This document shows positions 17,475 through 64,000 of a stretch of DNA of 64,000 nucleotides, in pieces. This DNA is from Myroides indicus (GTDB lineage Bacteria; Bacteroidota; Bacteroidia; Flavobacteriales; Flavobacteriaceae): NCBI RefSeq assembly GCF_004364575.1, contig NZ_SOAG01000001.1, forward strand, positions 59,247 through 123,246. Direction: 5' to 3'. Position 1 is the stretch's first letter, and every line of letters starts with the position of its first letter. The position numbers were made by a program, and so were the translations under genes. The notes under the pieces are model-generated. The model saw only the letters and a list, made by a program, of their open reading frames with translations. It was not told the origin of the DNA and made no database searches.

Positions 17475-20456
17475 ATGCTAAAACAGCTTATAGAAAAATA
17501 TCAGTCAGACAGAATTCATTATCTGACTAATAAATATAACGAAACACAACTCCGTAGTGATTTCTTAGACCCATTTTTTGAATTGTTGGGTTGGGATATT
17601 AAGAATAATGCAGGGAAACCAACTAACGAAAGAGAGGTAATTTTAGAAGAACCATTGAAAGCAAATGCTTCTGAACATTCAAAGAAACCAGATTATACTT
17701 TCCGACTTTTTTCGGAAAGAAAGTTCTTTTTGGAAGCCAAGAAACCGTTTGTCAAAATTGAAGCGGACAATGAAACAGCTAAACAAATAAGACGTTACGG
17801 TTTTACCGCCAAACTAAAAATTTCTGTCCTTTCCAACTTTGAATACCTTATTATTTATGATACTTCGGTCAAAGTTGAACAAGGAGATACCTTTCAAAAA
17901 GCACTTGTTAAGAAATATCATTATACCGAGTACGAAAGTAAGTTTGATGAAATCAAACGACTGTTAGGCAAGGAAGAAGTTTATTCAGGAGGGTTTGATA
18001 ACGAATGGAAAGAGATTGAAAACAAAATCAATCAATATTCTATTGACAATTTATTTTTAAAGCAAATCAATGAATGGCGTAAGGCATTAGGTGCTGAAAT
18101 CCACAAGTACGAACCGAACATTGATGAACAGCAATTGAATGATATTGTTCAGAACTATCTGAACCGTATATTGTTTTTACGTGTATGTGAGGACAGAAAT
18201 TTAGAAGATTATCAAACTCTTTTAAAATTTGCGAATACAAACGACTTTAAAGCCTTAATCAAAAAATTTCAGGACGCTGATAAACGCTATAATTCAGGGC
18301 TATTTGACCAATTATTAAAGGATAAGATTGTAGAGAATATTAGCTCCGTATTTTGGACAATTATCAAGCATCTGTATTATCCTGAAAGCCCTTATTCTTT
18401 TAGTGTTTTCTCGTCTGATGTGTTGGGAAGCATTTATGAAATCTTCCTTTCTGAAAAATTAGTTGTTCAAAGCGGTGCGGTAGAATTGGTAAAGAAACCT
18501 GAAAACATAGACAGGGATATTGTTACCACACCAACGTTTATTATCAATGACATTCTAAGAAACACGGTTTTGCCCAAGTGCAAAGACAAAACAGACGAAG
18601 AAATTCTGCAATTAAAATTCGCTGATATTGCTTGTGGTTCAGGAGCATTTTTGTTGGAGTTATTCCAGCTATTGAATGACATTTTAATTGACTATTATTT
18701 GGAAAATGATAAGTCAAAACTCATTCAAACTAACATCAATACTTATAAACTTCCTTTTGAAATCAAAAGAAAAGTTTTGTTGAATTGCGTTTATGGCGTT
18801 GATAAAGACTACAATGCGGTTGAAGCAACGAAATTTGGTTTATTGTTGAAATTATTGGAAAGCGAAGATGTAAATTCAACCAACAAAACCAAGCCTGTTT
18901 TACCTGACCTCTCAAAGAATATCTTTTTTGGGAACAGCTTATTAAACTCAAAACAAGTTGAAAAGAAAAATCAAACAGCAGTAAACCCATTTGATTTTTC
19001 AAAGCTCCGTTTTGATGTGATTGTTGGAAATCCGCCTTATATGAAATCGGAGGATATGAAAAATATCACACCGCTTGAGCTACCATTATACAAGACAATT
19101 TACACATCAGCTTACAAGCAGTTTGACAAATACTTTTTGTTCCTTGAACAAGGGCTGAATTTATTGACCGATGACGGAATTTTAGGCTATATCGTTCCAA
19201 GTAAGTTTACCAAAGTGGGTGCAGGTAAAAAACTTCGGGAGTTACTTACAGAAAAAGAATATTTACATTCAATTGTTTCATTTGGGGCAAATCAGGTTTT
19301 TGCCGATAAAACAACTTATACCTGTTTGCTCATTCTGAATAAAAAGCCTCAAAAGACGTTTCAATATGCGGAGATAAAGAGCTTAAAGAGTTGGAAAGTT
19401 AGAGAGCCCAACGCAGTTAAATATGAAACTCAAATAACTAAGACTTTAGACGATGATGTTTGGGTTTTAATTCCTTCTGAATTGAAGCCCGTATTCAATA
19501 AAATTTTAGCTCAGTCCGAAAAGCTGGAGTTAATACTTGGTGAAAAGAATATCACAAATGGCATTCAAACAAGCAAAAACCCTTTATATATAATCATACC
19601 TCAAAGGATTGATAAATCTTTTGCTCACTTTGAAATAAAAGGTGTCAAATGGAAAATTGAAAAAGAATTACTACGCCCATATTATAAAACACCATCAAGT
19701 AAAAAGCTTAAAGAGAAATTCAACACTTACAGCTTTTTGAACCCCAACTCATACGTAATTTTTCCATATAAGAAGAAAGGTGGAAAAGTAGAGGTAATAC
19801 TTGAAGGCGAAATTAAAAGTACATATCCATTTGCTTACAAGTATTTCAAGCATTATGAAAAAGTAATTAAAGAAAGGGATGTTAGTCCGCCAATAGGTAA
19901 TGATGATTGGTACAAATTCGGAAGAAGTCAACATTTAGATAGTTGGGAAGCTAATGAAAAAATAATTGTTGGTGTTTTATCTACTGGAGAAAAGTACCCT
20001 ATTGATAAAAGTAAAACTATCGTATCCTCTGGAGGAACAGCAGGATATTGTATAGTTGCTATTCCTGAAAACTCGGAGTATTCTATTTATTACATTCAGT
20101 CTATTCTTAATTCAAAATATTTAGAATGGTTCAGTGCTTTGTATGGCGAGGTTTTCAGAGGGGGGTATATTGCCAGAGGTACAAAGGTTTTGAGAAACCT
20201 GCCAATCAGGAAAATAGATTTTACCGATGAAAATGATAAAGCCCTTCACGATGAAATTGTAAATACTCAAAAAGAATTAATCAGTATATATAACCAGATA
20301 GATGCCAATGCGGGAAACAAAAGAGCTTTAACCCCACTTCAGGCACAGTTTGCAAGAGAAAAAGCAAACTTAGAAAAACTGTTAGCCAAATTATACGATT
20401 TGGGCACTGATGATTTATTAATTCCTTTAATCAAAGAATTGTATGAAGCTAATTGA
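17475..20456 (+). CDS. Type IIG-like restriction enzyme: fused nuclease and adenine methylase
   Basis: A 993-residue enzyme of the Eco57I/BREX-PglX-like N6-adenine methyltransferase class with an N-terminal nuclease-like domain. Near residues 72-90, KPDYTFRL..RKFFLEAKKP fits PD-(D/E)XK (P-D ... E-A-K). Methylase motif I is FADIACGSGAFLLELF near 383, the catalytic NPPY is in VIVGNPPYMKS near 517, and the target-recognition part follows with the TaqI-like specificity C-terminus (YIQSILNSKYLEWF..GTKVLRNLPI). Both activities in one chain plus a second methylase downstream suggest self-contained modification and cutting. It overlaps the next gene by 14 bp. Confidence 0.92.
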   Translation: MLKQLIEKYQSDRIHYLTNKYNETQLRSDFLDPFFELLGWDIKNNAGKPTNEREVILEEPLKANASEHSKKPDYTFRLFSERKFFLEAKKPFVKIEADNETAKQIRRYGFTAKLKISVLSNFEYLIIYDTSVKVEQGDTFQKALVKKYHYTEYESKFDEIKRLLGKEEVYSGGFDNEWKEIENKINQYSIDNLFLKQINEWRKALGAEIHKYEPNIDEQQLNDIVQNYLNRILFLRVCEDRNLEDYQTLLKFANTNDFKALIKKFQDADKRYNSGLFDQLLKDKIVENISSVFWTIIKHLYYPESPYSFSVFSSDVLGSIYEIFLSEKLVVQSGAVELVKKPENIDRDIVTTPTFIINDILRNTVLPKCKDKTDEEILQLKFADIACGSGAFLLELFQLLNDILIDYYLENDKSKLIQTNINTYKLPFEIKRKVLLNCVYGVDKDYNAVEATKFGLLLKLLESEDVNSTNKTKPVLPDLSKNIFFGNSLLNSKQVEKKNQTAVNPFDFSKLRFDVIVGNPPYMKSEDMKNITPLELPLYKTIYTSAYKQFDKYFLFLEQGLNLLTDDGILGYIVPSKFTKVGAGKKLRELLTEKEYLHSIVSFGANQVFADKTTYTCLLILNKKPQKTFQYAEIKSLKSWKVREPNAVKYETQITKTLDDDVWVLIPSELKPVFNKILAQSEKLELILGEKNITNGIQTSKNPLYIIIPQRIDKSFAHFEIKGVKWKIEKELLRPYYKTPSSKKLKEKFNTYSFLNPNSYVIFPYKKKGGKVEVILEGEIKSTYPFAYKYFKHYEKVIKERDVSPPIGNDDWYKFGRSQHLDSWEANEKIIVGVLSTGEKYPIDKSKTIVSSGGTAGYCIVAIPENSEYSIYYIQSILNSKYLEWFSALYGEVFRGGYIARGTKVLRNLPIRKIDFTDENDKALHDEIVNTQKELISIYNQIDANAGNKRALTPLQAQFAREKANLEKLLAKLYDLGTDDLLIPLIKELYEAN

Positions 20457-22050
20457 TAATGCAACAGCCGAAAAACTTCGGGGTGGTTTTTATACGCCTG
20501 AACCGATTGCTTCATTCATTTTAAAATGGGGCATTAACGGAAGTTCTAACTACGAGATTTTAGAGCCTAGTTGCGGAGACGGTGTGTTTTTGGAACAACT
20601 AAAAGAGAATAATCATAAGTTCAAATCAGTTATAGCTATTGAGTTTGACGAGGTTGAAGCAGACAAAGCAGACAAAATCAAGCTTCAGAATACAAATGTA
20701 ATCAATACTGATTTTCATTTGTATTGTAATGAAACTACGGAACGATTTGATTTAGTTGTCGGTAATCCGCCCTATATTCGTTATCAATATTTTGACAAAG
20801 AGCAACAAGCCGAAGCAGATAAAATATTCAAAAAAGCAGGGCTGAAATATTCTAAATTAACCAACGCTTGGGTTTCGTTTGTTGTAGGGGCAAGTTTGCT
20901 ACTTAAAAACAAAGGAAAAATAGGCTTTGTAATTCCTGCGGAATTATTACAGGTTTCGTATGCCAAACAATTACGTGAATTTTTAGCCCATTTCTATAAT
21001 AAAATCAATATTATTTCTTTTGAAAAATTGGTGTTTCCCGATATTCAACAAGAAGTTGTTTTATTGCTTTGTGAAAGAAACGGAAGCAATTCACACTTGA
21101 TTGAACATTTGGAATTGAGAGATGCTTCCGACCTTGAAACATTGGATGTAAACAGGCTCAAAAGTCCGACCAAAAAAATAGATTTCAAATCCAATAAATG
21201 GACTTACTATTTTTTGGAACAGGAAGAGATTGATTTTCTTGAAAACATTGCAACAAAAAGAAAAATCCCAACAATCGGAGATTATGCCAATGTTGAAGTG
21301 GGTATTACCACAGGGGCAAACAATTATTTTACCGTTCCCTATTCAACCGTTGCTTTTTATCGTTTAGAAGAATTTGCAAAGCCAATGGTTGGTAGAAGTG
21401 TGCAAGTGAATAGCGTTGTTTTCACAAAGGATGATTGGTTTAAAAATCAGCAAACCGAAGCAAAAGCAAATTTGTTGGTATTTCCATCAAAAGAAAAACT
21501 GAACGGACACACAGGCGTAAAAGATTATTTGCAATATGGCGAAAGTATCGGTATCAACAAAGGTTACAAAACAGGTATTCGTGATGATTGGTTTGTAATT
21601 CCATCAATCAAACTTTCTGATGCGTTGTTTATTCGTAGAAATAATTTGTTTCCACGTTTGATTTTGAACGAAGCAAACGCCTACACAACTGACACAATGC
21701 ACCGTGTTTCCATTAAAGAAACTGCAAACAAAAATGCTTTCATTGCGAGTTTTTACAATTCGCTTTCATTGGCATTTTCGGAAATTGTAGGTCGTAGTTA
21801 TGGTGGTGGAGTTTTAGAACTAATGCCAAGCGAAGCAGAACAAATACTTCTTCCCTATCAATCTGAAAATACTAAATTACTTGAAAGCATTGATAAAATG
21901 ATGCGAAGCAAAAAAAGCATTGATGACATTTTAAAAATCACAAACAAACAAATTTTGAAAGACGCCTACGGTTTTACAGAAAAAGAAATAAAACTTGCGG
22001 ATAGCATTTGGAGAAAATTGTCGGCAAGGAGATTAAATAGGGGTAAATAA
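20443..22050 (+). CDS. N6-adenine DNA methyltransferase, second methylase
   Basis: A 535-residue methyltransferase of the gamma (TaqI-like) class. GGFYTPEPIASFILKW opens the SAM-binding region, motif I is EILEPSCGDGVFLEQL (about residues 38-53), motif IV is LVVGNPPYIRY (about 104-114), and the C-terminal half looks like a target-recognition domain. It starts inside the last 14 bp of the upstream methylase-nuclease gene, so the two are translationally coupled. It probably protects the other strand of an asymmetric site. No frameshift or missing catalytic residue is seen. Confidence 0.92.
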   Translation: MKLIDNATAEKLRGGFYTPEPIASFILKWGINGSSNYEILEPSCGDGVFLEQLKENNHKFKSVIAIEFDEVEADKADKIKLQNTNVINTDFHLYCNETTERFDLVVGNPPYIRYQYFDKEQQAEADKIFKKAGLKYSKLTNAWVSFVVGASLLLKNKGKIGFVIPAELLQVSYAKQLREFLAHFYNKINIISFEKLVFPDIQQEVVLLLCERNGSNSHLIEHLELRDASDLETLDVNRLKSPTKKIDFKSNKWTYYFLEQEEIDFLENIATKRKIPTIGDYANVEVGITTGANNYFTVPYSTVAFYRLEEFAKPMVGRSVQVNSVVFTKDDWFKNQQTEAKANLLVFPSKEKLNGHTGVKDYLQYGESIGINKGYKTGIRDDWFVIPSIKLSDALFIRRNNLFPRLILNEANAYTTDTMHRVSIKETANKNAFIASFYNSLSLAFSEIVGRSYGGGVLELMPSEAEQILLPYQSENTKLLESIDKMMRSKKSIDDILKITNKQILKDAYGFTEKEIKLADSIWRKLSARRLNRGK

Positions 22051-22060
22051 ATAATTAAAA

Positions 22061-23098
22061 ATGAAAAGACAGCCAACAACTCAACAGATAACTTGGTTTT
22101 TAGACTTATATCGCAATAACCAATTAGACTTAACTCCACCGTATCAAAGAAAAAGTGTATGGAGTCCTAAAGACAAAAAGTTCTTTTTAGATACTATTTT
22201 CAGGAACTATCCAGCACCACCTATATTTATTCATAGGACTGTTAATGACCAAGGCTATACAACCTATCACATTGTTGATGGCAAGCAACGTTTGGAAACA
22301 ATCTTATCTTTTTTTGAAAGTAAAATTGCAATAGCTCAAGATTTTGGGGATGTAAACTTAAATGGCAAGAAATTTAAAGACCTATTACCAGAATACAAAA
22401 GAAAATTTTGGGATTATACCTTAGTTGTTGATTTTATTGATTCAATCGATGGAAATAATATTGAGGAAGTTTTTGATAGAGTAAATAGAAATGCGAGAAA
22501 TTTACAACCACAAGAATTAAGACACGCAAGATACAATGGATGGTTTATCAACTTTGTTGAAGAAGAATCTGATACAGATTTCTGGTGGGATTATAAAATA
22601 AGTACAAGAGGAAGAGATAAACGAATGAAGAATGTTCAGTTTATTTCCGAATTGATGATGATTATTTTGGAAAATACAATTGTTGGATTCGACCAAGACC
22701 ACATAGATACTATTTATGCTCAGTATGATGAAATTGAAGAGTTACAGGAATCTGGGGATTTTAGTTTAGAAGAATTCATAAATAGACTTTCATATATTAA
22801 GCAATTTATTTTAGCTGTAGATAACCATAACGTGGCAATCAAAAAATTTGCATCTGGTTCTAATAACAACTACTACACTTTATGGGCATACATACATTTA
22901 AATAATCCTCAAGACAGTGTCGCTTTTGCTGATGCTTATGATGTTTTTATGACAAAAGTATCTCAGGTAAAAGAAAAACAGGAAGCTGGGGAAGAAATTG
23001 AAGAAGATGTACTCAAATATTATGATAACTCTAAGGGAGCTGTTACAGACCTTCCTCAAAGAAGAGAACGTTTGTTAGCTTTAACAAACAACTTATAA
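22061..23098 (+). CDS. DUF262 (GmrSD N-terminal type) protein
   Basis: A 345-residue protein with the DUF262 fold, ParB/Srx-like. The key motifs are LTPPYQRKSVWSPKDKKFFLDTIF (near residue 25) and YHIVDGKQRLETILSFF (near 70, the D-G-x-Q-R nucleotide-binding motif). Related domains in GmrSD and SspE/BrxU-type proteins bind NTPs and sense or cut modified DNA. The C-terminal HNH nuclease (DUF1524) of GmrSD is not visible here, so it is a stand-alone DUF262 protein. It is 10 bp after the second methylase and 1 bp before the RelA/SpoT-like gene, clearly part of the operon. Confidence 0.9.
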   Translation: MKRQPTTQQITWFLDLYRNNQLDLTPPYQRKSVWSPKDKKFFLDTIFRNYPAPPIFIHRTVNDQGYTTYHIVDGKQRLETILSFFESKIAIAQDFGDVNLNGKKFKDLLPEYKRKFWDYTLVVDFIDSIDGNNIEEVFDRVNRNARNLQPQELRHARYNGWFINFVEEESDTDFWWDYKISTRGRDKRMKNVQFISELMMIILENTIVGFDQDHIDTIYAQYDEIEELQESGDFSLEEFINRLSYIKQFILAVDNHNVAIKKFASGSNNNYYTLWAYIHLNNPQDSVAFADAYDVFMTKVSQVKEKQEAGEEIEEDVLKYYDNSKGAVTDLPQRRERLLALTNNL

Positions 23099-23099
23099 A

Positions 23100-24074
23100 A
23101 TGAAAATAGTAAAATCTATTCAAGAGCTATACAATAAGAGATTTGAATTCTACAAGATTCTAAAATCAAAAGCTGATATCTTAATCAATAGTCAGAAAGA
23201 TGAAAGATGGCACTATGAAAGTCGGATAAAAAAAATTGAGAGTTTTTCAATGAAAATTGAAACAGGTAGATTTAATCAAAATCAAGTTTTTGAAGATTTT
23301 TTTGCGGCTACAATTGTAGTAAAAAATTTGAATGAGATTAAGGTTGCTGAAAAGTTATTAGAGAAAAATTTCACGATACACGAGAGAAGACCTTATTCTA
23401 TAAACTTTACTCATAAAGATTCTTTTTCATTTCCCTTTGATGATTTAAGATTATATATTTCTTTAAAAGACAACCAGACAGGAGAGTTTGCACAACACAT
23501 TTACGATTTAAAATTTGAAGTGCAAATCAAAACTTTTTTACAACACGCTTGGTCAATTGCAACACACGATTTAATTTATAAATCTGACAAAATAAATTGG
23601 GCAAAAGAACGAGTTGCCTACCAAGTAAAAGCCGCATTGGAACAAGCAGAAGTTACAATAAGTGGAATCGAAGAACTTAGTAAATTGACAGAGTTAGCTA
23701 AAGAAAATAAAGAAGTAAAAAAGGTAAACCAATTAATATCTACGATCCAAAATCACTGGAAAGAAGAGGATTTACCATTAGATAGAAGAAGATTAGCTCA
23801 AAATATATTAGGATTTATTGAAGCTATCGGTATCTCAATACAAGAATTAAATGAAATATTGAAAAGCGAAACCATCGCAAAACGAGGGGTTTTAATACGT
23901 GATTTATCTCCCTATCTAATTGTAGTTCAATCAATATTTAATACACATCCTGATAAAATTATCGGATATCTTCAGAACCAACGAAACAAAAATAAACAGA
24001 AAATTCTGATTACTACTGAAATGACTATTCCAGAATTAGGAGAAGTTGTAGAAGAAAAATTGGTTAAGATATAA
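23100..24074 (+). CDS. Diverged RelA/SpoT-like nucleotidyltransferase
   Basis: A 324-residue protein whose first 165 residues fit the RelA/SpoT synthetase fold: SRIKKIESFSMKI, FEDFFAATIVV (D66), and FEVQIKTFLQHAWSIATHDLIYKSD (E140, K144, H156, Y160-K161), which parallels the canonical E-x-Q-I-R-T ... H-x-x-x-YK. The usual G-Y-x-S-x-H loop that stacks the guanine base is absent; FPFDDLRLYISL stands in its place. The Arg of the D-x-x-G-x-R-I motif is also lost. The C-terminal half is helical. It could be an effector or a signal-making enzyme with a changed substrate. It is 1 bp after the DUF262 gene and 8 bp before the helicase gene. Confidence 0.82.
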   Translation: MKIVKSIQELYNKRFEFYKILKSKADILINSQKDERWHYESRIKKIESFSMKIETGRFNQNQVFEDFFAATIVVKNLNEIKVAEKLLEKNFTIHERRPYSINFTHKDSFSFPFDDLRLYISLKDNQTGEFAQHIYDLKFEVQIKTFLQHAWSIATHDLIYKSDKINWAKERVAYQVKAALEQAEVTISGIEELSKLTELAKENKEVKKVNQLISTIQNHWKEEDLPLDRRRLAQNILGFIEAIGISIQELNEILKSETIAKRGVLIRDLSPYLIVVQSIFNTHPDKIIGYLQNQRNKNKQKILITTEMTIPELGEVVEEKLVKI

Positions 24075-24082
24075 ATTATCCG

Positions 24083-27049
24083 GTGCACGTGAAAGACGAA
24101 TTCAACTCGATAGAACTTTTCCGCTCCCTCTTCAAAGGTCGTGAAGATGTATTTGCCGTTCGTTGGGAGAAATCAGGAAAATCGGGTTATATGCCTGCCT
24201 ATCAATATGACCCATATCACTATCGGGTACACAAAATGAATGGCGGAACATTTGCAAATTATCCGCATAAAACCTTTTTACCGCTTACCGATAATGAAAT
24301 TCAAAAACACTTAAACGGTGTACAGCAAATAGGTATTTATCCTTTATTGCAAGACAATACCTCTTGGTTTTTGGTAGCGGATTTTGACAAGCAAAACTGG
24401 AAAGAAGAAGCGGTAAATTTCTTAAATGCTTGCAGAGAGAAACATATTCCTGTCTACTTGGAACGTTCCCGTTCGGGAAACGGTGGACACGTCTGGATAT
24501 TTTTTGACAAACCTTATCCTGCAATCCGAAGCAGAAAAGTTTTCATTTCCATTTTAGAGCAGTCGGGAGTGTTTTCAATGTTTGACAAAAGCTCAAGTTT
24601 CGACCGATTATTTCCAAATCAAGATTTTCTCTCTGGAAAAGGTTTGGGAAATCTGATTGCACTTCCATTTTTTAAACCCGCATTGGAGAATGGAAATAGT
24701 TGCTTTATCAATCCCGAAACATTTGAACCTAATACAGACCAATGGCAGTTTTTAAAAGAAACCGAACGAGTTTCGATTGATATTTTGGAAAAGTTATTTC
24801 AGGAAATTTCAACAATACAAAATTTACCAATTGCTAAAAACCATAATGGCAAACTATCTATTACACTTCAACAAAATATTCTCATTCAAAGAGATGGGTT
24901 AACAACTCCACTAATCAACTTTCTGAAAGAGGAATTGAATTTTGCCAATTCAGAGTTCTTTATCAAGAAGAAATCGGGCAAAAACACTTTTGGCACAGAA
25001 CGATATTTTAAACTCGTTGAAGAAACGGAAAATGAAATCATTATTCCGAGAGGATTTATTGGAAAATTGCTTAGATTTTGCAAAGAACAAAATCTGGAAT
25101 TTGATTTTCAAGACAACCGAAAACTTAAAGAAGAAATCCCATACTCGTTCAATGCTACGTTGAGAAATCATCAGAAAAAAGTTATTGAAACTATTTCAAA
25201 AAAAGATTTTGGCGTTATCGTTGCTCCGCCGGGTTCGGGTAAAACGATAATGGGGTTGAAGATTATTGCAGACAAAAAGCAATCTTCCCTAATCGTTGTA
25301 CATCGCAAACAATTATTAGAACAATGGCAAGAACGAGTTCAGGCTTTTCTCGCTATTCCGAAACACGAAATCGGTATTATCGGTCAAGGGAAAGTGAAAA
25401 TAGGCAAGCAAATTACCATAGCGACTATCCAAAGTTTACCGAAGCAAATAGAGCAACTCCAAAATCAATTCGGAACTATTTTAGTGGATGAATGTCATCA
25501 TATTCCTGCCGAAACTTTTCGTAATACGATTGAGAAATTAAATACATTTTATCTCTACGGATTGACGGCAACTCCGTTTAGAAAATACAATGACGATAAA
25601 CTGATTTTTGCTTTTATAGGAGATGTCATTTCAGAAGTTACAAGCAATGAAATTGAAAATTTCAAACACGCTCAAATCATTGTCAGAAATACTAATTTGA
25701 ATGTTTCCTTCAATTCTAAAACGGATAATTTTGAAACACTTTCAAAGATTTTAGTTCACGATTCGGAAAGGAATAAACTCATTCTGAATGACATCAAAAA
25801 CGAACTTTCCAAAGGAAAGCGGATTGCTATTATCACAGAGAGAAAGGAACACATTGATACGCTTTATCTTTTCTTGAAACAATCTTACGAAGTTATTACG
25901 CTAAGCGGAGATGATACTGAAAGCAACAGAAAATCCAAATGGCAAACTTTACAACAAGGCAATTTTCAGGTATTAATTACCACAGGACAGTATTTTGGAG
26001 AGGGTTCGGATTTGTCGAATATCAGCTCCTTGTTTTTGGTGTATCCGTTTTCTTTCAAAGGTAAGCTGATTCAGTATATTGGACGTGTACAACGTTCTGA
26101 AATCAATCCGACAATCTATGATTATCGGGACATCAGAATTGATTACCTCAATAAACTGTTTTTAAAACGAAACACCTACTATCGTCAAATAGCCCGACAA
26201 GCAAATCTGTTTGATGAACCAACCGAGTTTATCCCTGAAAGTCAAAGTTTGGTTATCGAAAAACAAATTAAAATTGCCGTGGAAGATTTGGATTTCAGAT
26301 ACGGTAATATTGGCTTTGAGTACATTGATAAAGAAAACAACCAACGGTTTGTTTTTGAAATTGAAAACGAAGAGTTTAGACCTGAATTTGAAGTTTTGAA
26401 GCCTTATTTTATTAGGGTTCTGAAATCAAAAACGGTTGTGATTAATATTTATGCTGAAATAGAAAATGGAGTGGTTTTGTCGCAATTAGCTACATCACCC
26501 GACATTGAAAACATCAATAAAGAAATTATTGAAAGCGTAAAATTTCAGTTTCTGAACAAAAGTTTTATAGGTCAAATTCCGACTTCAAAACAAAATATGC
26601 TCACAACGAATGAATTGCCGAAAAACCAAAATATCTATACCAATGCCGAAAATGTTTTGAAAGACTTACTGAAAGGGAAGCAGTATAAGCATTCACGACA
26701 CATTCAGTTTTTGGCTGAAAGACATGAACGAAATGTAATGAAATTGCGGTTTGTTTTACAGCCGTTTTCATTCGTCTTTCTGTTAGCAGGAAAGCAAAAT
26801 TATCATATCATTTTAGAAACTTTGGACACCGAAGAAGCTACCTACATTTGGCACACTGACAAAAGCAAATCAGTATTGATTGACACTATAAAACAAATCG
26901 ACAAAGAACTAAATGTCATAAGAGAGCAAGGACGGCAAACTTATTTGGAAACCAGTCCACAAAGCTTTTCAAGAATAGTTCACGATTATTCTGATGACAA
27001 TAAAGGATTTACAATTTGGAAAGGGTTATTAGAAGAGCGTTTGACGTAA
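24083..27049 (+). CDS. Archaeo-eukaryotic-primase (TOTE type) fused to an SF2 helicase
   Basis: A 988-residue fusion. Residues about 20-230 form an AEP-type primase/polymerase domain: FLVADFDKQNW (D100, D102) and SRSGNGGHVWIFF (131-141), with the catalytic Asp pair and the S-G-x-G-x-H motif of the domain named after TOTE conflict systems. The SF2 helicase follows: APPGSGKT near 380, LVDECHH near 467, GLTATPFR near 494, and ending with YIGRVQRSE. The last about 300 residues contain an unrecognised conserved block (MKLRFVLQPFSFVFLLAGK..). The start is GTG at 24083 or 24089; no ATG is near. It is the last gene of the six-gene operon. Confidence 0.88.
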   Translation: MHVKDEFNSIELFRSLFKGREDVFAVRWEKSGKSGYMPAYQYDPYHYRVHKMNGGTFANYPHKTFLPLTDNEIQKHLNGVQQIGIYPLLQDNTSWFLVADFDKQNWKEEAVNFLNACREKHIPVYLERSRSGNGGHVWIFFDKPYPAIRSRKVFISILEQSGVFSMFDKSSSFDRLFPNQDFLSGKGLGNLIALPFFKPALENGNSCFINPETFEPNTDQWQFLKETERVSIDILEKLFQEISTIQNLPIAKNHNGKLSITLQQNILIQRDGLTTPLINFLKEELNFANSEFFIKKKSGKNTFGTERYFKLVEETENEIIIPRGFIGKLLRFCKEQNLEFDFQDNRKLKEEIPYSFNATLRNHQKKVIETISKKDFGVIVAPPGSGKTIMGLKIIADKKQSSLIVVHRKQLLEQWQERVQAFLAIPKHEIGIIGQGKVKIGKQITIATIQSLPKQIEQLQNQFGTILVDECHHIPAETFRNTIEKLNTFYLYGLTATPFRKYNDDKLIFAFIGDVISEVTSNEIENFKHAQIIVRNTNLNVSFNSKTDNFETLSKILVHDSERNKLILNDIKNELSKGKRIAIITERKEHIDTLYLFLKQSYEVITLSGDDTESNRKSKWQTLQQGNFQVLITTGQYFGEGSDLSNISSLFLVYPFSFKGKLIQYIGRVQRSEINPTIYDYRDIRIDYLNKLFLKRNTYYRQIARQANLFDEPTEFIPESQSLVIEKQIKIAVEDLDFRYGNIGFEYIDKENNQRFVFEIENEEFRPEFEVLKPYFIRVLKSKTVVINIYAEIENGVVLSQLATSPDIENINKEIIESVKFQFLNKSFIGQIPTSKQNMLTTNELPKNQNIYTNAENVLKDLLKGKQYKHSRHIQFLAERHERNVMKLRFVLQPFSFVFLLAGKQNYHIILETLDTEEATYIWHTDKSKSVLIDTIKQIDKELNVIREQGRQTYLETSPQSFSRIVHDYSDDNKGFTIWKGLLEERLT

Positions 27050-54530: not shown

Positions 54531-54756
54531 AAAATAAAGCTCTGTGTTTTAATTTTAAAAACGGAGTTCTATTTTTAGTATTTCTTTCCTCCCTCCTAAC
54601 TTCCCTATTTCATTTATTGCCCTATTTTTATTCCTCTTCTCTCCTTTTTTGCTAATACTCTGTGTTTTTAACGGAATCTGCAAGCGTTTGACACTCGCAG
54701 AAATCATGATACCATGGAAAAGGCATTAAAGAACAATTTTAAGAAAAAACGACAAT

Positions 54757-54822
54757 ATGATTTATAAACCTAAAATAAACATCCGCACCAAACCGCCTCA
54801 GTTGACAAGCGAGTGTCTTTAA
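54757..54822 (+). repeat. Micro-frame in repeat unit 1 (MIYKPKINIRTK.., 21 codons)
   Basis: ATG through TAA in the unit head. Reads MIYKPKINIRTKPPQLTSEC-L. Later copies keep the first 12 residues with changes at a few positions, several of them synonymous. It could be a coding micropeptide or chance. Confidence 0.35.
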
Positions 54823-54913
54823 GCTGAAATGAAGTGCTAAGAATACAAGCCGTAGGCAGTTTTGTATTCGTGCCTGAATAAGGCGTAAAAAGACCGCGAA
54901 GGCAGGTGTAGCG

Positions 54914-55029
54914 AAACCCTTTTTGTTTCTTTTTATTCGACAAAGAAAATATTCTTGAAGGAGTCTCATGATTATTAGCTTTTCAACAATAATTGACAAA
55001 ATGAAAAAAGCTAATAGTTGGGGTATCAA
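54914..55029. repeat. Identical 114-bp internal module, copy 1
   Basis: Identical to 55934-56049 over at least 114 bp. It contains ATTAGCTTTT / AAAAGCTAAT as a hairpin around an AATAATTGACAAAAT loop, so it is a small hairpin module inserted in two of the units and missing in unit 2. Confidence 0.8.
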
Positions 55030-55147
55030 AAAGATAAAAGAGACCTTTTAAAGAGGAATATTTCATTCTATACTTTCTTTTCCTTGATGAAAAAAAGTAT
55101 CAAAAAAAATCAAGACTGCATTTCTCCTATCGGTCTTTCTAAGGTTT

Positions 55148-55198
55148 GTTTTGCAAACTATATGACAGTGGCTTCGCCCATATAGTTTGATGCAAAAC
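55148..55198. repeat. Long hairpin core of the repeat, copy 1
   Basis: GTTTTGC-AAACTATATG pairs with CATATAGTTT-GAT-GCAAAAC across GACAGTGGCTTCGCC. Copies lie at about 55589-55640, 56249-56299 and 63634-63683 (degenerate). Confidence 0.8.
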
Positions 55199-55278
55199 TG
55201 CACCAAGAAGACACTCGACAGAGAAATGAGGTCATGGGAAAGGCATTAAAGAACATTTTAAAGTAAAAACGAGAAATT

Positions 55279-55362
55279 ATGATTTATAAACCCAAAGTAA
55301 ACATCCGCACCAAACGGCATTATGTAATTAGCGAGTGTCGTCTTAGCGCAGGGACGTTATGA
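55279..55362 (+). repeat. Micro-frame in repeat unit 2 (MIYKPKVNIRTK.., 27 codons)
   Basis: Reads MIYKPKVNIRTKRHYV then ISECRLSAGTL-stop. It shares the first 12 residues with unit 1 but follows the other module type, so the reading frame ends later. Confidence 0.3.
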
Positions 55363-55588
55363 GAAACCATGTCCGAAGCGTAGCTAGTCTGGTTTCGAAT
55401 AGGCACAAGCGATAGATGACCGCTAAATTACATTCAGCCAAACCCTTTTTGTTTCTTTTTGGGGTCATCAAAAAGATAAAAGAAACATTTTAAAAAGGAA
55501 TATTTCATTCTATACTTTCTTTTCCTTGATGAAAAAAAGTATCAAAAAAAATCAAGACTGCATTTCTCCTATCGGTCTTTCTAAGGCT

Positions 55589-55640
55589 TGTTTTGCAAAC
55601 TATATGACAGTGGCTTCGCCCATATAGTTTGATGCAAAAC
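55589..55640. repeat. Long hairpin core of the repeat, copy 2
   Basis: Same sequence as 55148-55198 with small changes in the flank (AAGGCTTG instead of AAGGTTTG). Confidence 0.75.
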
Positions 55641-55720
55641 TGTACCAAGAAGACACTCGACAGAGAAATGAGGTCATTGGAAAAGCATTAAAGAACATTT
55701 TAAAGTAAAAACGAGAAATT

Positions 55721-55804
55721 ATGATTTATAAACCTAAAATAAACATCCGCACCAAACGGCATTATGTAATTAGCGAGTGTCGTCTTAGCGCAGGGACGTT
55801 ATGA
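55721..55804 (+). repeat. Micro-frame in repeat unit 3
   Basis: Reads MIYKPKINIRTKRHYV then ISECRLSAGTL-stop, identical in protein to the unit 2 version except Ile for Val. Confidence 0.3.
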
Positions 55805-55933
55805 GAAACCATGTCCGAAGCGTAGCTAGTATAGTTCGACCAAGTGTCTATTTTAAAAGGTGTCTCATGAATGCTAAAGCATTTGGTTTCGAATAGGCAC
55901 AAGTGATAGATGACCGCTAAATTACATTCAGCC

Positions 55934-56049
55934 AAACCCTTTTTGTTTCTTTTTATTCGACAAAGAAAATATTCTTGAAGGAGTCTCATGATTATTAGCT
56001 TTTCAACAATAATTGACAAAATGAAAAAAGCTAATAGTTGGGGTATCAA
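55934..56049. repeat. Identical 114-bp internal module, copy 2
   Basis: Same module as 54914-55029, here following a different upstream module, which shows that parts of the array are exchanged independently. Confidence 0.8.
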
Positions 56050-56105
56050 AAAGATAAAAGAAACATTTTAAAAAGGAATATTTCATTCTATACTTTCTTT
56101 TCCTT

Positions 56106-56160
56106 GATACAACTATTTGATTTTAAACAAAAAATAAAAACGCTTAAAATCAAATAATCA
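56106..56160. repeat. Hairpin insert replacing part of the 3' module
   Basis: ACTATTTGATTTTAA pairs with TTAAAATCAAATA around AAAAATAAAAACGC. The same insert stands in the unit at 63495-63545, at the same spot of the module, so it looks like a small mobile or exchanged hairpin. Confidence 0.6.
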
Positions 56161-56248
56161 CTGAACTCCTATGAAAATAGACACAAGGTGAAGTAAAACG
56201 AAGCAAAAGATCAAGACTGCATTTCCCCTATCGGTCTTTCTAAGGCTT

Positions 56249-56299
56249 GTTTTGCAAACTATATGACGGTGGCTTCGCCCATATAGTTTGATGCAAAAC
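56249..56299. repeat. Long hairpin core of the repeat, copy 3
   Basis: Same GTTTTGCAAACTATATG ... GATGCAAAAC hairpin with one changed base in the loop (ACGGTGG). Confidence 0.75.
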
Positions 56300-56510
56300 T
56301 GCACCAAGAAGACACTCGACAGAGAAATGAGGTCGTGGGAAAGGCATTAAACAACATTTTAAAGTAAAAACAAAAATAAGCAAGACAAAAAATAGATTAT
56401 AAAGACTTCCTTACCCTTTTACTAAACACTATTACAACCTCCATTTTTAAGCTTTTATCATATAAACCATCTAATTACTGCATTTTTTCTGTTAAAAGAA
56501 AAATGTGATG

Positions 56511-57478: not shown

Positions 57479-59638
57479 ATGATTAATAACTTAAATTTAG
57501 TAGACAGGTTATTTGAATCCTACAATTATAAAATAGCTAGAACTTCTACTAATGATGTAAGGATTTATACTTTACAATATGGAATGTACCATGCTGCAGA
57601 AATAATTTCTTTTGATAAAGCCATAGATGTCTCGAAATTCAAAAATGAATTTTCAGAATTAGGATACGCTACAGATGTTAAAGTAGTAAAAAACTTAGAA
57701 GAAGTTGAAGAATACTTATTTGAAGGTTTTTTTATCAAAACACCATTAGGTAATGAATTAAAAAACAGATACAAGAACTTCGTTAAAAAGCAACTCTCAA
57801 ACTTACCAGAAAATAGCCAATATAAATATATTGATAGTGACTTCGATTTAATTTTACAAAACAATCTTGGAGAAATTACTGAAGCAAAATCATACTCATC
57901 TAAAGATCATAGTATAATTACAAAGATAAATGAGCTTTTTACTAAAACAGCCGGAGCTCTATTTATTATTATTGAAGCTCCTGCAGGTTTTGGAAAAACT
58001 TGTACAGCAAACGAAATTTTAAATTGTATTACTGTTGAAAACTCAAAAATACTACCTTTTTTTACTGAACTTTCAAGAAATAGAGAAGCACGAGTATTTA
58101 AACATATTCTTCTAAGTGAAATTGACAGTCAATTTCCAAATGGAATAAAACAAAATGTAGTTCTTGAACAAATTTACAAAGGACGTATTCCCCTAATAAT
58201 TGATGGATTTGACGAATTAATCACGAAGGATAGTAACAAAGAAGATGTTGAAAGTATGCTTACAACTATAGTGGATTTACTACAAAACGACGCTAAGATT
58301 GTTATTACATCAAGAAAAACAGCTATTTTAAATAGTGAAGAGTTTATTGAAACGATAAACTCTTCTATTGAAAATTTTTCTCTTGCTCGTTTTGAGATAA
58401 AAGAACCAACTATTGAGAATTGGCTAAATCCAAATAGGTTAAAAGCCATATTGGAAAACGAATTTCCAATAAGCCAAATTTCAAACCCTGTCCTTTTATC
58501 ATATTTAAGAAATATACCATTAGAGAAACTAGAAGATTTTTTAACTACTAGCGAAGGTACATTAATTGACAAATATTTTGATTATTTACTTACAAGAGAG
58601 CAAGAAAGGCAAAATTTAAAATTAGATAATCAAACACAATTCCGAGTTTTCAGAAAGCTCAATCGATTCATGTCAGAGTTTAACTTTACAGCTGAAACAA
58701 AAGAAACAATAAAAGATTTTCTCAAGGAATATAATATTCAAATATTACAAGAAAGTATAAAACAATATAAAGAAAAAGACATAAAACCTTCCATTGATGA
58801 ATTAACAGAGACATTATCAAATCACGTGTTTTTGGATAGAAAAACAGATGGTAATATAGGTTTTATAAATGATTTTATTTTCGGATTTTTAATTAGTGAA
58901 AATCTAATTTTAGAAAAATTTCAAGAACATTATAAAGGTAATTTTACGAGAGTTATCCCACAAGACTTTGCTCAAAAGTCACTTGAAGCTTCTAGAGTAC
59001 AAAGTATATCTAATAAAAACAAACTTTGGGAAGTTTACAATGAACATGATTTTGGCTACGATTCGGTATTCTATTTTGACGCAGATTACTTCTTAAAAAA
59101 TGAAATAAAACGTAATTTCAAAACTTTATTTCTTTCCGATAGAACAATAAAAAACTTGCTCTTTACTAAATATTCTTTTGAAAATTGTGTCTTTGCGGGC
59201 ATAACTTTTGAAAATTGTACTTTTTCAACTTCAACATTTAAAAAATCGTCTTTTCAAAACTGTAAATTTTACAACTGTATTTTACAAGATAAAACATCAA
59301 TTATTTATGATGATTTTGGAATTTATGTTTGTCAAGATAACAATGATCTTATAAAAGAGATAAACTCTTTATATTGTAAAGACAATGATAAAAACGAAGA
59401 TGAATCAGACAACTCTTTGACTGAACAGAAAGTTCTTTTGCAATTCTTACAAGTAGACGAAAAGAGACCTAAACCAAGAAAATTTTCAGTCATCAAACAA
59501 CGGTTATCTGAATATTCTGATAAAGAAATAAATAATATAATTGATTCTTTAATTCGTAAAGGCTACTTACATTTTAAAGATGATGTTGGTTTTATTACAA
59601 GAGAAGCTATGAATTTTTTAAATCACAACGGCAACTGA
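57479..59638 (+). CDS. NACHT-type STAND ATPase with pentapeptide-like repeats
   Basis: A 719-residue signal-transducing ATPase. The first 130 residues form an N-terminal domain I do not recognise. The NACHT core follows: Walker A IIIEAPAGFGKTCTANEIL (167-174), Walker B GRIPLIIDGFDELI (239-247) with the D-G-F-D-E-L signature, a sensor KIVITSRKT near 278, then helical winged-helix regions. Residues about 562-600 show pentapeptide-like F-x-x-C repeats (FENCVFAGITFENCTFS..), and the last about 80 residues look like a winged helix (EKRPKPRKFSVIKQRLSEYSD). Proteins of this layout are anti-phage sensors in which an invader protein triggers oligomerisation. The stop overlaps the next start (TGATG), so the RelA/SpoT-like protein is its likely effector or partner. 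Confidence 0.88.
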   Translation: MINNLNLVDRLFESYNYKIARTSTNDVRIYTLQYGMYHAAEIISFDKAIDVSKFKNEFSELGYATDVKVVKNLEEVEEYLFEGFFIKTPLGNELKNRYKNFVKKQLSNLPENSQYKYIDSDFDLILQNNLGEITEAKSYSSKDHSIITKINELFTKTAGALFIIIEAPAGFGKTCTANEILNCITVENSKILPFFTELSRNREARVFKHILLSEIDSQFPNGIKQNVVLEQIYKGRIPLIIDGFDELITKDSNKEDVESMLTTIVDLLQNDAKIVITSRKTAILNSEEFIETINSSIENFSLARFEIKEPTIENWLNPNRLKAILENEFPISQISNPVLLSYLRNIPLEKLEDFLTTSEGTLIDKYFDYLLTREQERQNLKLDNQTQFRVFRKLNRFMSEFNFTAETKETIKDFLKEYNIQILQESIKQYKEKDIKPSIDELTETLSNHVFLDRKTDGNIGFINDFIFGFLISENLILEKFQEHYKGNFTRVIPQDFAQKSLEASRVQSISNKNKLWEVYNEHDFGYDSVFYFDADYFLKNEIKRNFKTLFLSDRTIKNLLFTKYSFENCVFAGITFENCTFSTSTFKKSSFQNCKFYNCILQDKTSIIYDDFGIYVCQDNNDLIKEINSLYCKDNDKNEDESDNSLTEQKVLLQFLQVDEKRPKPRKFSVIKQRLSEYSDKEINNIIDSLIRKGYLHFKDDVGFITREAMNFLNHNGN

Positions 59639-60534
59639 TGAGTAGAGATTTGGAACTAATAGAAAAAGACATCTGTTCAAAAATATGTGAAAGACTTAAT
59701 AAGGTTGGTCTTTTGTACAGGATTTTCAGTCGTATTAAAAATAATAATTCTGTAACAGAAAAAATTAAGAGAAAAGAAGAAGAAGGTACTCCCTATTCAA
59801 TAGAAGGAAAAAAAATACAAGATATCATTGGAATTCGTATCGTTACATACTTCCATGATGATGTCAATTTGGTTAGAGAAATTCTATCAGATGTTTTTAA
59901 ATATGTTAGCGAGGAAATAGACACTATAGAACCTACAGTTTTTAAACCTAAAAGGACAAATATTATATGTAGTTTAGATGACAAACAAAAAGAAACCTTT
60001 AAAGAAATTATAAAAGTAACTAATAGTGAATCTCTTAAATTATCAGATTATACTTTTGAACTTCAATTAAGGACAATTTTATCTGAAGGTTGGCATGAAA
60101 TAGATCATAGTTTAAGATATAAATCAAAAAAAGAATGGTCTAAGCATTCTGAAAAAGAAAGGTTATTAAATGGAATTTATGCTACTTTAGAAGTGAATGA
60201 TTTAGCTATGAAATCTTTATTTAATGAATTAGCATATCAGCATTTTAAAGAAAAGAACTGGGAAGCTATGCTAAGAAATAAATATCGTCTAAAATTTCAA
60301 TCAACAAACATAAAAAGTGAGTTAAAACAAATTCTAAATGAAGATTTAGATATTGCAAAACAACTGTTAAAATCTAATAGGCTTAGAGTTATAAAAAAGC
60401 TTTCTAAAGTTGACATTCCATTTCCAATAAGTTTTAATAATATTATATACTTTACTAATCACATTGAGTTAAAAAACGATAAAATAGGAAGTTTAACTCC
60501 TGAATTAATCAGACAAATACTAGTGGACATTTAA
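59638..60534 (+). CDS. Diverged RelA/SpoT-like protein coupled to the NACHT ATPase
   Basis: A 298-residue protein. The N-terminal 165 residues fit the RelA/SpoT nucleotidyltransferase fold: IKNNNSVTEKIKRK (Lys/Ser region), IQDIIGIRIVTYF (D62, R67), and FELQLRTILSEGWHEIDHSLRYKSKK (E141, R145, H157, Y161-K162). The expected K-x-x-G-Y-x-S-x-H loop between these parts is missing; VFKPKRTNIICSLDDKQKET stands there instead. So either the guanine-binding Tyr is lost or another residue replaces it. The C-terminal half is helical. Its start overlaps the upstream stop by 1 bp (TGATG). Confidence 0.82.
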   Translation: MSRDLELIEKDICSKICERLNKVGLLYRIFSRIKNNNSVTEKIKRKEEEGTPYSIEGKKIQDIIGIRIVTYFHDDVNLVREILSDVFKYVSEEIDTIEPTVFKPKRTNIICSLDDKQKETFKEIIKVTNSESLKLSDYTFELQLRTILSEGWHEIDHSLRYKSKKEWSKHSEKERLLNGIYATLEVNDLAMKSLFNELAYQHFKEKNWEAMLRNKYRLKFQSTNIKSELKQILNEDLDIAKQLLKSNRLRVIKKLSKVDIPFPISFNNIIYFTNHIELKNDKIGSLTPELIRQILVDI

Positions 60535-60910: not shown

Positions 60911-62077
60911 CTATAGGATATCTTTAAAATCACTTATATTTTTTCCATTACTAGAAAAAGGATAATCTTTAGTTATTCTGTGATTTATAAAAGAAAGTTT
61001 ATTATTTTTACTTAGATGCTGATTAATATGTGTGTCATTAAAAGAATAACCCGAAACAAATAAATTTTCCGTTTCTAACATAATTCTTGAAAAATCTGAA
61101 TAAATGTTTTTATACATTTTATCATTATCTATTATTATTGTTTTGTCAGTACCAGTAATAAATTTTGGAACAATATCAGATGCCATATTCTGAACAATAT
61201 CCCCTGTTGTAGAATCGACTCTTTGACATCTATGTTTCTCATAATAATCATTAGTCATAAAATAATCATATTCTCCTGTTAGTTGATCGTAACCATCTAG
61301 ATTTTTTTCGACATAATTAAATTTATATAAGTCAATACTACCATGTAGCTTATATACTCGAACTTTTTTATTATAGTTACCTGTATAAACAGGAAGCTTC
61401 TTATCATTAGCTACCAATACACTATTATTTGTTTCAAAACCTCTAGAATATTCTATACCGCCTAATTCTAAAATTCTTTCTACTATTAAATCATGATTTA
61501 AGGTAAAAATATTCACTTCATCGAATGATTTTACATAATCTAAGAAATACTTAAAAGTCAAACAAAGTTCATCATCATTCATTTTTATTGGCTGGAGAAT
61601 ATCTGCTATTAAATAATTGAGTATAGGCAGAACTTTAAAATATTGTTTATAATTAAAAAGAACTAAATGGTCACTATCTTCTTTCTCTATTAAACAAGGA
61701 TAATCTTGGAGTAATTGTTCTTTGGCATCAGAAAAAATTTTTGAAATTTTGTTATTATTTTTATAGGAGTCACTTATAAATTGATAAAAATCTTCATAGT
61801 TTAAAAATTTATCGCTATTATTAGATTTGTAAATATTCAAAAGTTCATTAAAAACATAAGAATAACCCAATCTTTCAAAGCTTAAGTGACCATTGTTTAT
61901 TATTGTTTTATCTTTATCATCTATCCAAGCCCATTCACTTGATGGAAAATTTAATAGTTTATCTCTTAAATCTCTATTGAAGTAGTCTGAAACTCCTTTT
62001 GCTATAGGCATATTAGCATTTGCCGAAAATCCTGCTCCAAGTAAAACTGTAAGCTTTTTCATCCTATCTGGTTTCAT
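60911..62077 (-). CDS. SIR2-like NADase-type protein
   Basis: A 388-residue protein with an N-terminal SIR2 fold: TVLLGAGFSANANMPIA (G-A-G-x-S at residues 14-18, NAD binding), IFTLNHDLIVE (T-x-N-x-D near 205), VRVYKLHGSIDLYKF (the catalytic His near 255), and LFVSGYSFNDTHINQHL (G-Y-S-F-x-D near 358). No Zn-binding Cys quartet is visible, as in defence-type SIR2 proteins that consume NAD+ rather than deacetylate. The start is ATG 62077 or 62062 (MKKLTVLLG). It lies 39 bp downstream of the XRE-type gene and should be its operon partner. Confidence 0.88.
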   Translation of the reverse strand: MKPDRMKKLTVLLGAGFSANANMPIAKGVSDYFNRDLRDKLLNFPSSEWAWIDDKDKTIINNGHLSFERLGYSYVFNELLNIYKSNNSDKFLNYEDFYQFISDSYKNNNKISKIFSDAKEQLLQDYPCLIEKEDSDHLVLFNYKQYFKVLPILNYLIADILQPIKMNDDELCLTFKYFLDYVKSFDEVNIFTLNHDLIVERILELGGIEYSRGFETNNSVLVANDKKLPVYTGNYNKKVRVYKLHGSIDLYKFNYVEKNLDGYDQLTGEYDYFMTNDYYEKHRCQRVDSTTGDIVQNMASDIVPKFITGTDKTIIIDNDKMYKNIYSDFSRIMLETENLFVSGYSFNDTHINQHLSKNNKLSFINHRITKDYPFSSNGKNISDFKDIL

Positions 62078-62116: not shown

Positions 62117-62368
62117 TTATTCCTTCATCCTCCTCACAAACTCATCATAAGTTTCTGATTTCTCATTTTTCCAATCAGTAGGCTCAATCAAATCCTGAAT
62201 ATTTACTCTTAACAATCTTGCAATTTCATAAAGATTTTCAAGTGAAGGTTGTCGTTTATTGTTCCTCCATTTTGAAATTGTCTCTTCAGATTTTTTCATT
62301 TTTTTTGCTAAGACTCTATTCTTTATACTTTTACTTTTAAATACTTCGTCAAGTTTATTAATCTTCAT
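62117..62368 (-). CDS. XRE-family helix-turn-helix regulator
   Basis: An 83-residue protein. The HTH is residues about 8-62 (FKSKSIKNRVLAKKMKKSEETISKWRNNKRQPSLENLYEIARLLRVNIQDL), typical of small XRE repressors. It precedes the SIR2 gene in one operon and may keep it low in the absence of infection. Confidence 0.9.
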   Translation of the reverse strand: MKINKLDEVFKSKSIKNRVLAKKMKKSEETISKWRNNKRQPSLENLYEIARLLRVNIQDLIEPTDWKNEKSETYDEFVRRMKE

Positions 62369-63070: not shown

Positions 63071-63262
63071 AATGGGATAGGTGTGTCCTAATCCTAAACA
63101 GAAAAATATTATTCAATTTTAAAAATCTGTGTACAGACCATTGTATAATTTTCCTCCTCAGGGTGTTGTTTTTCATAATGCATTGCTTGGTTAGTAAACA
63201 CCCTGCCCTGTGCAGGTGTCCTGCCTGCACAAGGGCTTTGAGGAAAAAATAAAAACGACAAT

Positions 63263-63328
63263 ATGATTTATAAACCTAAAATAAGCATCCGCACCAAACC
63301 GCCTCAGCTGACAAGCGAATGTCTTTAA
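63263..63328 (+). repeat. Micro-frame in right block (MIYKPKISIRTK..)
   Basis: Reads MIYKPKISIRTKPPQLTSEC-L-stop, the same type as the first unit with Ser for Asn at residue 8. Confidence 0.3.
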
Positions 63329-63761
63329 GCCGAAATGAAGTGCTGAGAATACAAGCCGTAGGCAGTTTGTATTCGTGCCTGAATAAGGCGTAAAAAGACC
63401 GCGAAGACAGGTGGAGCGAGAGGGGGTTTTGATTCTTTTGTACCCCTTACAAAAGAATAAAGAATATTTCATTCTATACTTTCTTTTCCTTGATACAACT
63501 ATTTGATTTTAATAAAAAATAAAAACGCTTAAAATCAAATAATCACTGAACTCCTATGAGAATAGGCACGATGTGAAGTAAAACGAAGCAAAAGATCAAG
63601 ACTGCATTTCTCCTATCGGTCTTTCTAAGGTTTGTTTTGCAAACTATATGACAGTGGCTTCGTCCATATAGTTTTATACAAAACTTCACCAAGAAGACAC
63701 TCGACAGAGAAATGAGGTCGTTGCAAGGCATTAAAGAACATTTTAAAGTAAAAACGACAAT

Positions 63762-63827
63762 ATGATTTATAAACCTAAAATAAAAATCCGCACCAAACCG
63801 CATCAGCTGACAAGCGAATGTCTTTAA
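63762..63827 (+). repeat. Micro-frame in right block (MIYKPKIKIRTK..)
   Basis: Reads MIYKPKIKIRTKPHQLTSEC-L-stop, with Lys at residue 8 and His for Pro at residue 14. Confidence 0.3.
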
Positions 63828-64000
63828 GCCGAAATAAAGTGCTAAGAATACAAGCCGTAGGCAGTTTGTATTCGTGGCTGAATAAGGCGTAAAAAGACTG
63901 CGAAGGCAGGTGGAGCGAGAGGGGGTTTTGATTCTTTTGTACCCCTTACAAAAGAATAAGAAAAGAGATTCCGAACCAAGTTCAGCAGGACAAGGTTTCT

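Follow-up and report, generated by a model that had tools for sequence, protein, structure and literature searches.

Organization of the two-gene locus

Two genes of Myroides indicus, both on the forward strand, were examined within a stretch of 64,000 nucleotides (hereafter, the window). Gene A (57479..59638, +) encodes a NACHT/STAND ATPase of 719 aa and gene B (59638..60534, +) a RelA/SpoT-fold protein of 298 aa, both assigned by open reading frame calling and Pfam. A check of the sequence confirmed the two reading frames and their overlap as given in a first-pass annotation of this DNA: the start codon of B and the stop codon of A share one base at TGATG. That annotation had also placed the pair in a repeat-bounded islet, and repeats of 215-300 nt do lie on either side of it within the window. 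Scans for Rfam families, tRNAs and promoters/terminators gave nothing usable.

The M. indicus genome (3.06 Mb in 79 contigs) contains a single match to B. The synthetase domain PF04607 was found three times in it: in B, in a 757-aa ORF and in a second short protein encoded elsewhere in the window. The 757-aa ORF has the layout of a housekeeping Rel and is separate from B. B is neither the housekeeping Rel nor a known antitoxin, either of which would have refuted the initial proposal of a new system.

Two other genes of this region were considered as possible components. The SIR2 gene (60911..62077, -) is indeed present in the islet, as had been described, but it does not appear to be part of the system: no homologue was found in 61 loci from outside the M. 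indicus genome, so we regard this gene, which lies on the strand opposite to the pair, as a neighbour only. The HTH gene (62117..62368), also on the opposite strand, was matched once in the 61 outside loci (L018) and was likewise rejected. When the 76 nearest neighbours of 20 loci were compared, a single pair of proteins was similar between loci, and no further component beyond A and B was found among these neighbours. A PADLOC scan of 75 of the 76 neighbours matched 48 families (E <= 1e-8); among the 25 of these families that were listed, 24 were each matched by a single protein, many of them being overlapping methyltransferase models. The Pfam families of the neighbours (25 listed of 77) were mostly metabolic. 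These uncontrolled neighbour counts were not taken as evidence for or against a location in a defence island.

Association of A and B

In a pattern-seeded scan, 84,980 species genomes were searched with an alignment of B, and 22 loci were obtained. A homologue of A (31-85% identity) was located directly upstream of B in all 21 loci that had upstream sequence, and the remaining locus starts at a contig edge. The pair was also present in seven of seven viral contigs (of which four are nearly identical to the Escherichia coli copy) and, as judged from the listing with four regions read, in all six plasmid records that matched A, whose hosts are Pantoea, Klebsiella and Yersinia. The A protein on the Yersinia hibernica plasmid lacks its N-terminus. 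B was matched in 14 plasmid records; the six most similar (35-41% identity) carry A, and A had no match in the other eight (B identity 33% or less). In a survey of 299 genomes of the family, the pair was found for four of four real matches to A, our own genome included; the other four of the eight matches were discarded as chance (24.5 bits or less over at most 103 residues). Similarly, all three close relatives of B in 395 genomes of the class, again including our own, were paired with A.

We then measured 24 complete pairs, which leave out L012 and L017 (contig ends) and L026 (truncated A); for L014 the inner ATG of B, matching L021, was taken instead of the longest ORF. The gap between the two genes was -17 to +2 bases in all of them. 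The distance matrices of the two proteins were strongly correlated (r = 0.975, none of 5000 permutations as high), and the correlation held for the 15 closest pairs (r = 0.953, again none of 5000). The association between A and B is therefore far beyond chance. Considering the constant pairing, the narrow gaps, the co-divergence and the unlike surroundings, the two genes move together as one unit. The pairing of a NACHT gene with a RelA/SpoT gene, first noticed in this single genome, thus recurred throughout the surveys, with decayed copies in E. coli as the exception, and the two genes were not rarely adjacent in any of them. One counter-example is a relative of B in Eubacterium eligens (33% identity), which adjoins an adenosine deaminase gene, with no NACHT gene beside it, and a phage collection contained three distant B-like matches (25-29% identity) and no match to A.

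Distribution and mobility

The A-B unit is conserved, mobile, rare and scattered. Its hosts belong to three phyla and include Bacteroidota, Paenibacillus and Enterobacterales. A was found in only four of 299 family genomes and one of 395 phylum genomes, and the domain family PF22723, which forms the N-terminal part of A, in one of 390 phylum genomes, our own genome being included in each count. In E. coli, the unit was present, whole or broken, in 66 of 5426 complete genomes, of which 54 matched over 80% or more of the DNA of the pair, and the same search detected it on no E. coli plasmid. The two E. coli regions read with their far flank showed the unit in an island with an integrase next to ssrA. 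A tyrosine integrase also follows two Pantoea pairs. The DNA of the Klebsiella pair had no match in E. coli.

Gene A: a NACHT ATPase with a putatively inactive nuclease domain

Domains of A and B were assigned against the curated Pfam cut-offs. A begins with an NA-iREase2 domain (residues 8-123; 57500..57847, +; PF22723, E 1.1e-38), which is followed by the NACHT ATPase domain (residues 163-301; 57965..58381, +; PF05729, 34.4 bits against a cut-off of 26.7). The Walker A motif had been located correctly at residues 167-174 (57977..58000, +), where A167, A169, G170, G172, K173 and T174 are invariant in 24 of 24 pairs, and in the Walker B stretch PLIIDGFDEL (residues 238-247; 58190..58219, +) DGFDEL is equally invariant (24/24). 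The pentapeptide-like F-x-x-C repeats seen in the first reading of the sequence (within residues 562-604; 59162..59290, +) are also genuine, as two of three pentapeptide families (PF13576 and PF00805) exceeded their cut-offs and PF13599 fell below. The secondary structure of the model suggests a C-terminal winged-helix-like region (residues 649-706; 59423..59596, +), for which Pfam gave just a weak HTH_36 match (E 0.17). This region, the inactive-REase domain of A and the altered loop of B described below had previously been overlooked.

The predicted model of A has a pLDDT of 83.6 and a pTM of 0.61. Among solved structures, NLRC4, NOD2 and NLRP3 were its top matches, although other AAA+ proteins trailed these NLRs by one Z unit or little more and the TM-scores (0.20-0.27) were low. 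The resemblance of the NACHT module to NLRs is thus less clear-cut in the model, being tied with that to other AAA+ proteins. By its sequence, A is a NACHT ATPase, probably NLR-like, with an intact set of ATPase motifs.

The N-terminal REase domain is called inactive, based on the Pfam label and the lack of a conserved lysine, although acidic columns persist. No column of this domain has Lys in at least 20 of 24 sequences, and at a candidate D/E-x-K picked by eye (residues 66-68) the acidic residue is present in 14 and the lysine in nine of the 24. Acidic residues were found at E41 in 23, at E57 in 21 and at E77 in 20 of 24 sequences. By both the label and the lysine columns, A therefore lacks the active N-terminal effector domain expected of a bNACHT protein, and no killing activity of A itself is evident. 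The least conserved stretch of A, residues 601-640, lies next to the repeats; such variability fits a sensor, or the stretch could be a linker, since the confidence of the model falls at residues 636-644. No pZFD or Tis1-type antitoxin domain was present among the Pfam matches of A, and the best match of A to PADLOC models had an E-value of just 0.026.

Gene B: a conserved donor site and an altered acceptor loop

The RelA_SpoT synthetase domain occupies residues 31-165 of B (59728..60132, +; PF04607, 62.6 bits against a cut-off of 27), followed by a helical C-terminal region (residues 187-298) that is scarcely covered by the listed matches. The predicted model (pLDDT 83.9) is weakest at the loop discussed below (residues 91-110, pLDDT about 63-70) and at residues 151-190. 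PADLOC gave a weak match of B to PDC-S33 (E 2.3e-6).

The ATP-donor motif R32-x-K34-xxx-S38-xxx-K42 (59731..59763, +) is invariant in 24 of 24 pairs, as are the other donor-side residues D62, R67, E141 and Q143. In FaRel2, according to the available text of that study, ATP is bound by R64, K66, S70, K74, R77, R95, E145 and Q147, and Mg by D90 (PMC11782079); the internal spacing of the donor residues of B is the one given there. Only R45, the equivalent of R77 of FaRel2, is less conserved (15/24).

The acceptor side is different. The loop FKPKRTN (residues 102-108; 59941..59961, +) replaces the F-G-Y-x-S-x-H of ordinary enzymes, which in a gap-free alignment stands opposite F-K/S-P/A-x-R-x-N of the B family (Ala also occurring once at position 103 among the 24 pairs). 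In the 24 measured pairs, the tyrosine position holds Pro or Ala; in L046 it holds Val. The G-loop tyrosine itself was found in none of the 24 at the aligned position, whereas the genome's own Rel and the canonical SAS controls have it. Among the best 120 of 655 relatives of B, F-x-x-x-R-x-N was present in all 119 that could be evaluated (the loop of P0067 could not) and the canonical loop in none. Ten relatives with a canonical loop were identified in the class and phylum surveys (seven of ten and four of five matches to the B profile, respectively, with one gene in common), and no A was detected in their flanks of about 1.5 kb or less, one of them lying at a contig edge. The altered loop occurs with A and the canonical loop without it, which implies that the loop change tracks the partnership with A.

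This tyrosine has been called critical for every (p)ppGpp synthetase (PMC5794853), and the protection conferred by CapRel was abolished once it was lost (PMC9712102), as far as the accessible portions of these papers show. The original comparison with CapRel needs changing: B has the RelA/SpoT fold but lacks the acceptor-loop tyrosine on which CapRel depends, and so cannot be counted as an ordinary CapRel-like enzyme. From the conserved residues we infer that B keeps ATP as the donor and grips its acceptor in another way. On the other hand, the loss of the tyrosine might abolish transfer, and B could be catalytically weak.

Comparison with known systems

A precedent for the Asn of the acceptor loop is Apk2 of MuF toxins, an adenosine 3'-pyrophosphokinase with G-x-N where RSH enzymes have S-x-H; exchange of this motif left its specificity unchanged, according to the part of the report consulted (PMC12226406). 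The site ends in Asn in both proteins (G-x-N in Apk2 and R-x-N in B). However, syn2 and syn4 of B (G-I-R and L-R) resemble RSH/SAS enzymes and not Apk2 (RYT and YH), so that, of the signature set of Apk2 (syn3 G-x-N with syn2 RYT and syn4 YH) as available from that report, B has the Asn alone in common. Since B shares the His-to-Asn change with an adenosine 3'-pyrophosphokinase, an acceptor ending in adenosine may be guessed by analogy, with the 3' end of tRNA or an adenine nucleotide as the leading candidates.

Other known systems were compared from the sections of the cited papers that were available. Y155 of CapRel and Y128 of FaRel2 have no counterpart in B, which has R-x-N in place of S-x-H (PMC9712102; PMC11782079); moreover, these tRNA pyrophosphokinases have a fused or small antitoxin, whereas the partner of B is a NACHT ATPase. 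Unlike RelQ and RelP (PMC5794853), B lacks the G-loop tyrosine and has both the C-terminal helical region (187-298) and a partner gene. With bNACHT25 and bNACHT32 (PMC12169576), A shares a central NACHT domain, an REase-type N-terminal domain and a C-terminal part in the position of a sensor. In the text consulted, those proteins need an active N-terminal PD-(D/E)XK nuclease for defence (PMC12169576); in contrast, the REase domain of A is called inactive and the likely effector is encoded by the second gene, B. NACHT ATPases and RelA domains are both named, separately, in the available text on NTP-dependent ternary conflict systems (PMC7159879), which are built on MoxR and vWA proteins; a NACHT-RelA pair is not described in that text. 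No joined NACHT and RelA/SpoT system was found among the papers listed in our literature search, which covered few subscription papers; the 2023 bNACHT survey (Cell), outside that set, could carry an earlier mention. Within the literature searched, the pairing therefore matches no described system, as had been suspected.

Direction of control and proposed function

Broken copies in E. coli provide some information on how A and B are related. Of the 66 E. coli loci, 16 were read; these were chosen partly by annotation label, and many are clonal. Both genes were intact in five; A was split or truncated beside a full-length B in seven; one had an intact A and a broken B; and both were broken in three, one of which retained half of B and no A. 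A truncated A occurs, for instance, in strain ML35. The annotation labels of 60 of the 66 loci gave 33 with both genes intact, 17 with only A broken, seven with only B broken and three with both broken (the six further loci, outside this count, are probably those in which B was covered below 80%). An identical B (WP_000282312.1) was found beside an intact A in three of the read loci and beside a broken A in six. Hence A seems dispensable for keeping B harmless. An unchanged B is often found beside a broken A, which should be rare if A were an antitoxin. This favours A as an activator of B rather than its antitoxin, although clonality and expression limit the inference, and the E. coli operons with a broken A may just be silent.

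We lean, with modest confidence, towards a mobile two-gene unit in which A, of the NLR kind, senses infection and switches on B, which transfers pyrophosphate to a non-standard acceptor and thereby halts the cell. Damage or a phage product would be recognised through the pentapeptide-like stretch and the winged helix in the C-terminal part of A; A would then form oligomers, driven by ATP, and recruit or open B; and active B would transfer pyrophosphate from ATP to an adenosine-ended acceptor and stop growth before phage release. The logic of a sensor with a separate effector, proposed at the outset, is supported by our data; activation of B by A and phage defence are predicted.

Several other explanations should be considered. 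A nucleotide signal might be made or sensed by B and read by the C-terminal part of A, with A as killer or scaffold and B not an effector. RelA nucleotidyltransferase domains are indeed counted among the nucleotide-generating domains of other conflict systems in the available text of PMC7159879, and the REase domain of A retains acidic columns; nevertheless, with this domain called inactive by Pfam and no conserved Lys column in it, A has no evident means of killing, and we consider such an arrangement rather unlikely. It is improbable that the unit is a toxin-antitoxin system of the CapRel/FaRel2 kind, in which A binds and silences B until infection frees it. The toxSAS toxins of the fold of B do have antitoxins from which phage can release them, as stated in the parts consulted of PMC9712102 and PMC11782079, and the genes of A and B overlap or nearly abut, but A is an ATPase of 719 aa and no small antitoxin. 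Furthermore, a full-length B accompanies a split or truncated A in seven of the 16 read loci (clonal and partly picked by label), in six of these seven as the same record, WP_000282312.1, that stands beside an intact A, and broken A with intact B outnumbers the reverse by 17 to seven among the 60 labelled loci.

The stringent response is the setting in which the RelA/SpoT fold is most familiar. This role and the mostly metabolic families listed among the neighbours would agree with a housekeeping or stress-response unit through which growth is adjusted to nutrient cues, with no link to phages. However, the spread of the unit is very patchy (A in four of 299 family and one of 395 phylum genomes, our own included in both), it is carried on plasmids, viral contigs and an ssrA-linked island of E. 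coli, and the genome already has a separate long Rel (the 757-aa ORF), all of which argues against a housekeeping role, which we consider quite improbable.

By its parts the A-B unit belongs to a known kind, beyond which its unexplained, conserved acceptor loop could take it. An inflammasome-like system, in which an NLR that has lost its own killing domain directs a separate enzyme of the RelA/SpoT fold whose acceptor pocket has been remodelled, so that a new pyrophosphotransfer serves as an immune effector mobile across three phyla, is a tentative but quite conceivable extension of the sensor-effector reading. Because the unit is intact in some E. coli and small enough to be cloned in one piece, its trigger and its reaction are directly testable. 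If true, the new reaction would mean a new alarmone, a new RNA-end modification or another new target. The fold of the alarmone synthetases would then include one more branch, in which something other than the usual tyrosine holds the acceptor, and bacterial NLRs would be able to control a separate enzyme in trans, much as caspases are recruited by their animal counterparts.

Genomic surroundings of the pair

The NACHT/STAND ATPase gene and its RelA/SpoT-fold partner (genes A and B, 57479-60534, + strand) are convergent to a SIR2-like gene (60911-62077, - strand), which stands behind a small HTH gene (62117-62368, - strand). The SIR2-like gene was assigned to PF13289 and matched by PADLOC SIR2 models (best E-value 6.7e-16), and is possibly an independent defence gene. 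Both sides of this islet carry repeat families of 215-300 nt (54740-56420 and 63246-63959), the members of which are 63-96% alike.

Elsewhere, two Pantoea plasmids each carry, at a similar distance behind the pair, a gene for a tyrosine integrase (L024:9483-10520 and L027:7257-8294). In E. coli (L053, L054 and L056-L069) the pair is frequently disrupted, whether by an IS element, a frameshift or a deletion, and the damage falls on gene A more often than on gene B.

Further genes of the RelA/SpoT fold

The window contains a second RelA/SpoT-fold gene (23100-24074, + strand; 324 aa), the product of which has lost the Arg of the D-x-x-G-x-R motif and, as in gene B (FKPKRTN), has a non-canonical acceptor loop (FPFDDLR). 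It lies within a gene run (17475-27049, + strand) that also encodes two large DNA methylase-like proteins, a DUF262-like protein and a helicase, all named by eye.

A 609-aa relative of gene B (33% identity), with the similar loop FRAMKIN, was found on a Eubacterium eligens plasmid (L028:4885-7773), where it starts three bases behind an adenosine deaminase gene and not a NACHT gene. This neighbour gives a hint of adenosine chemistry.
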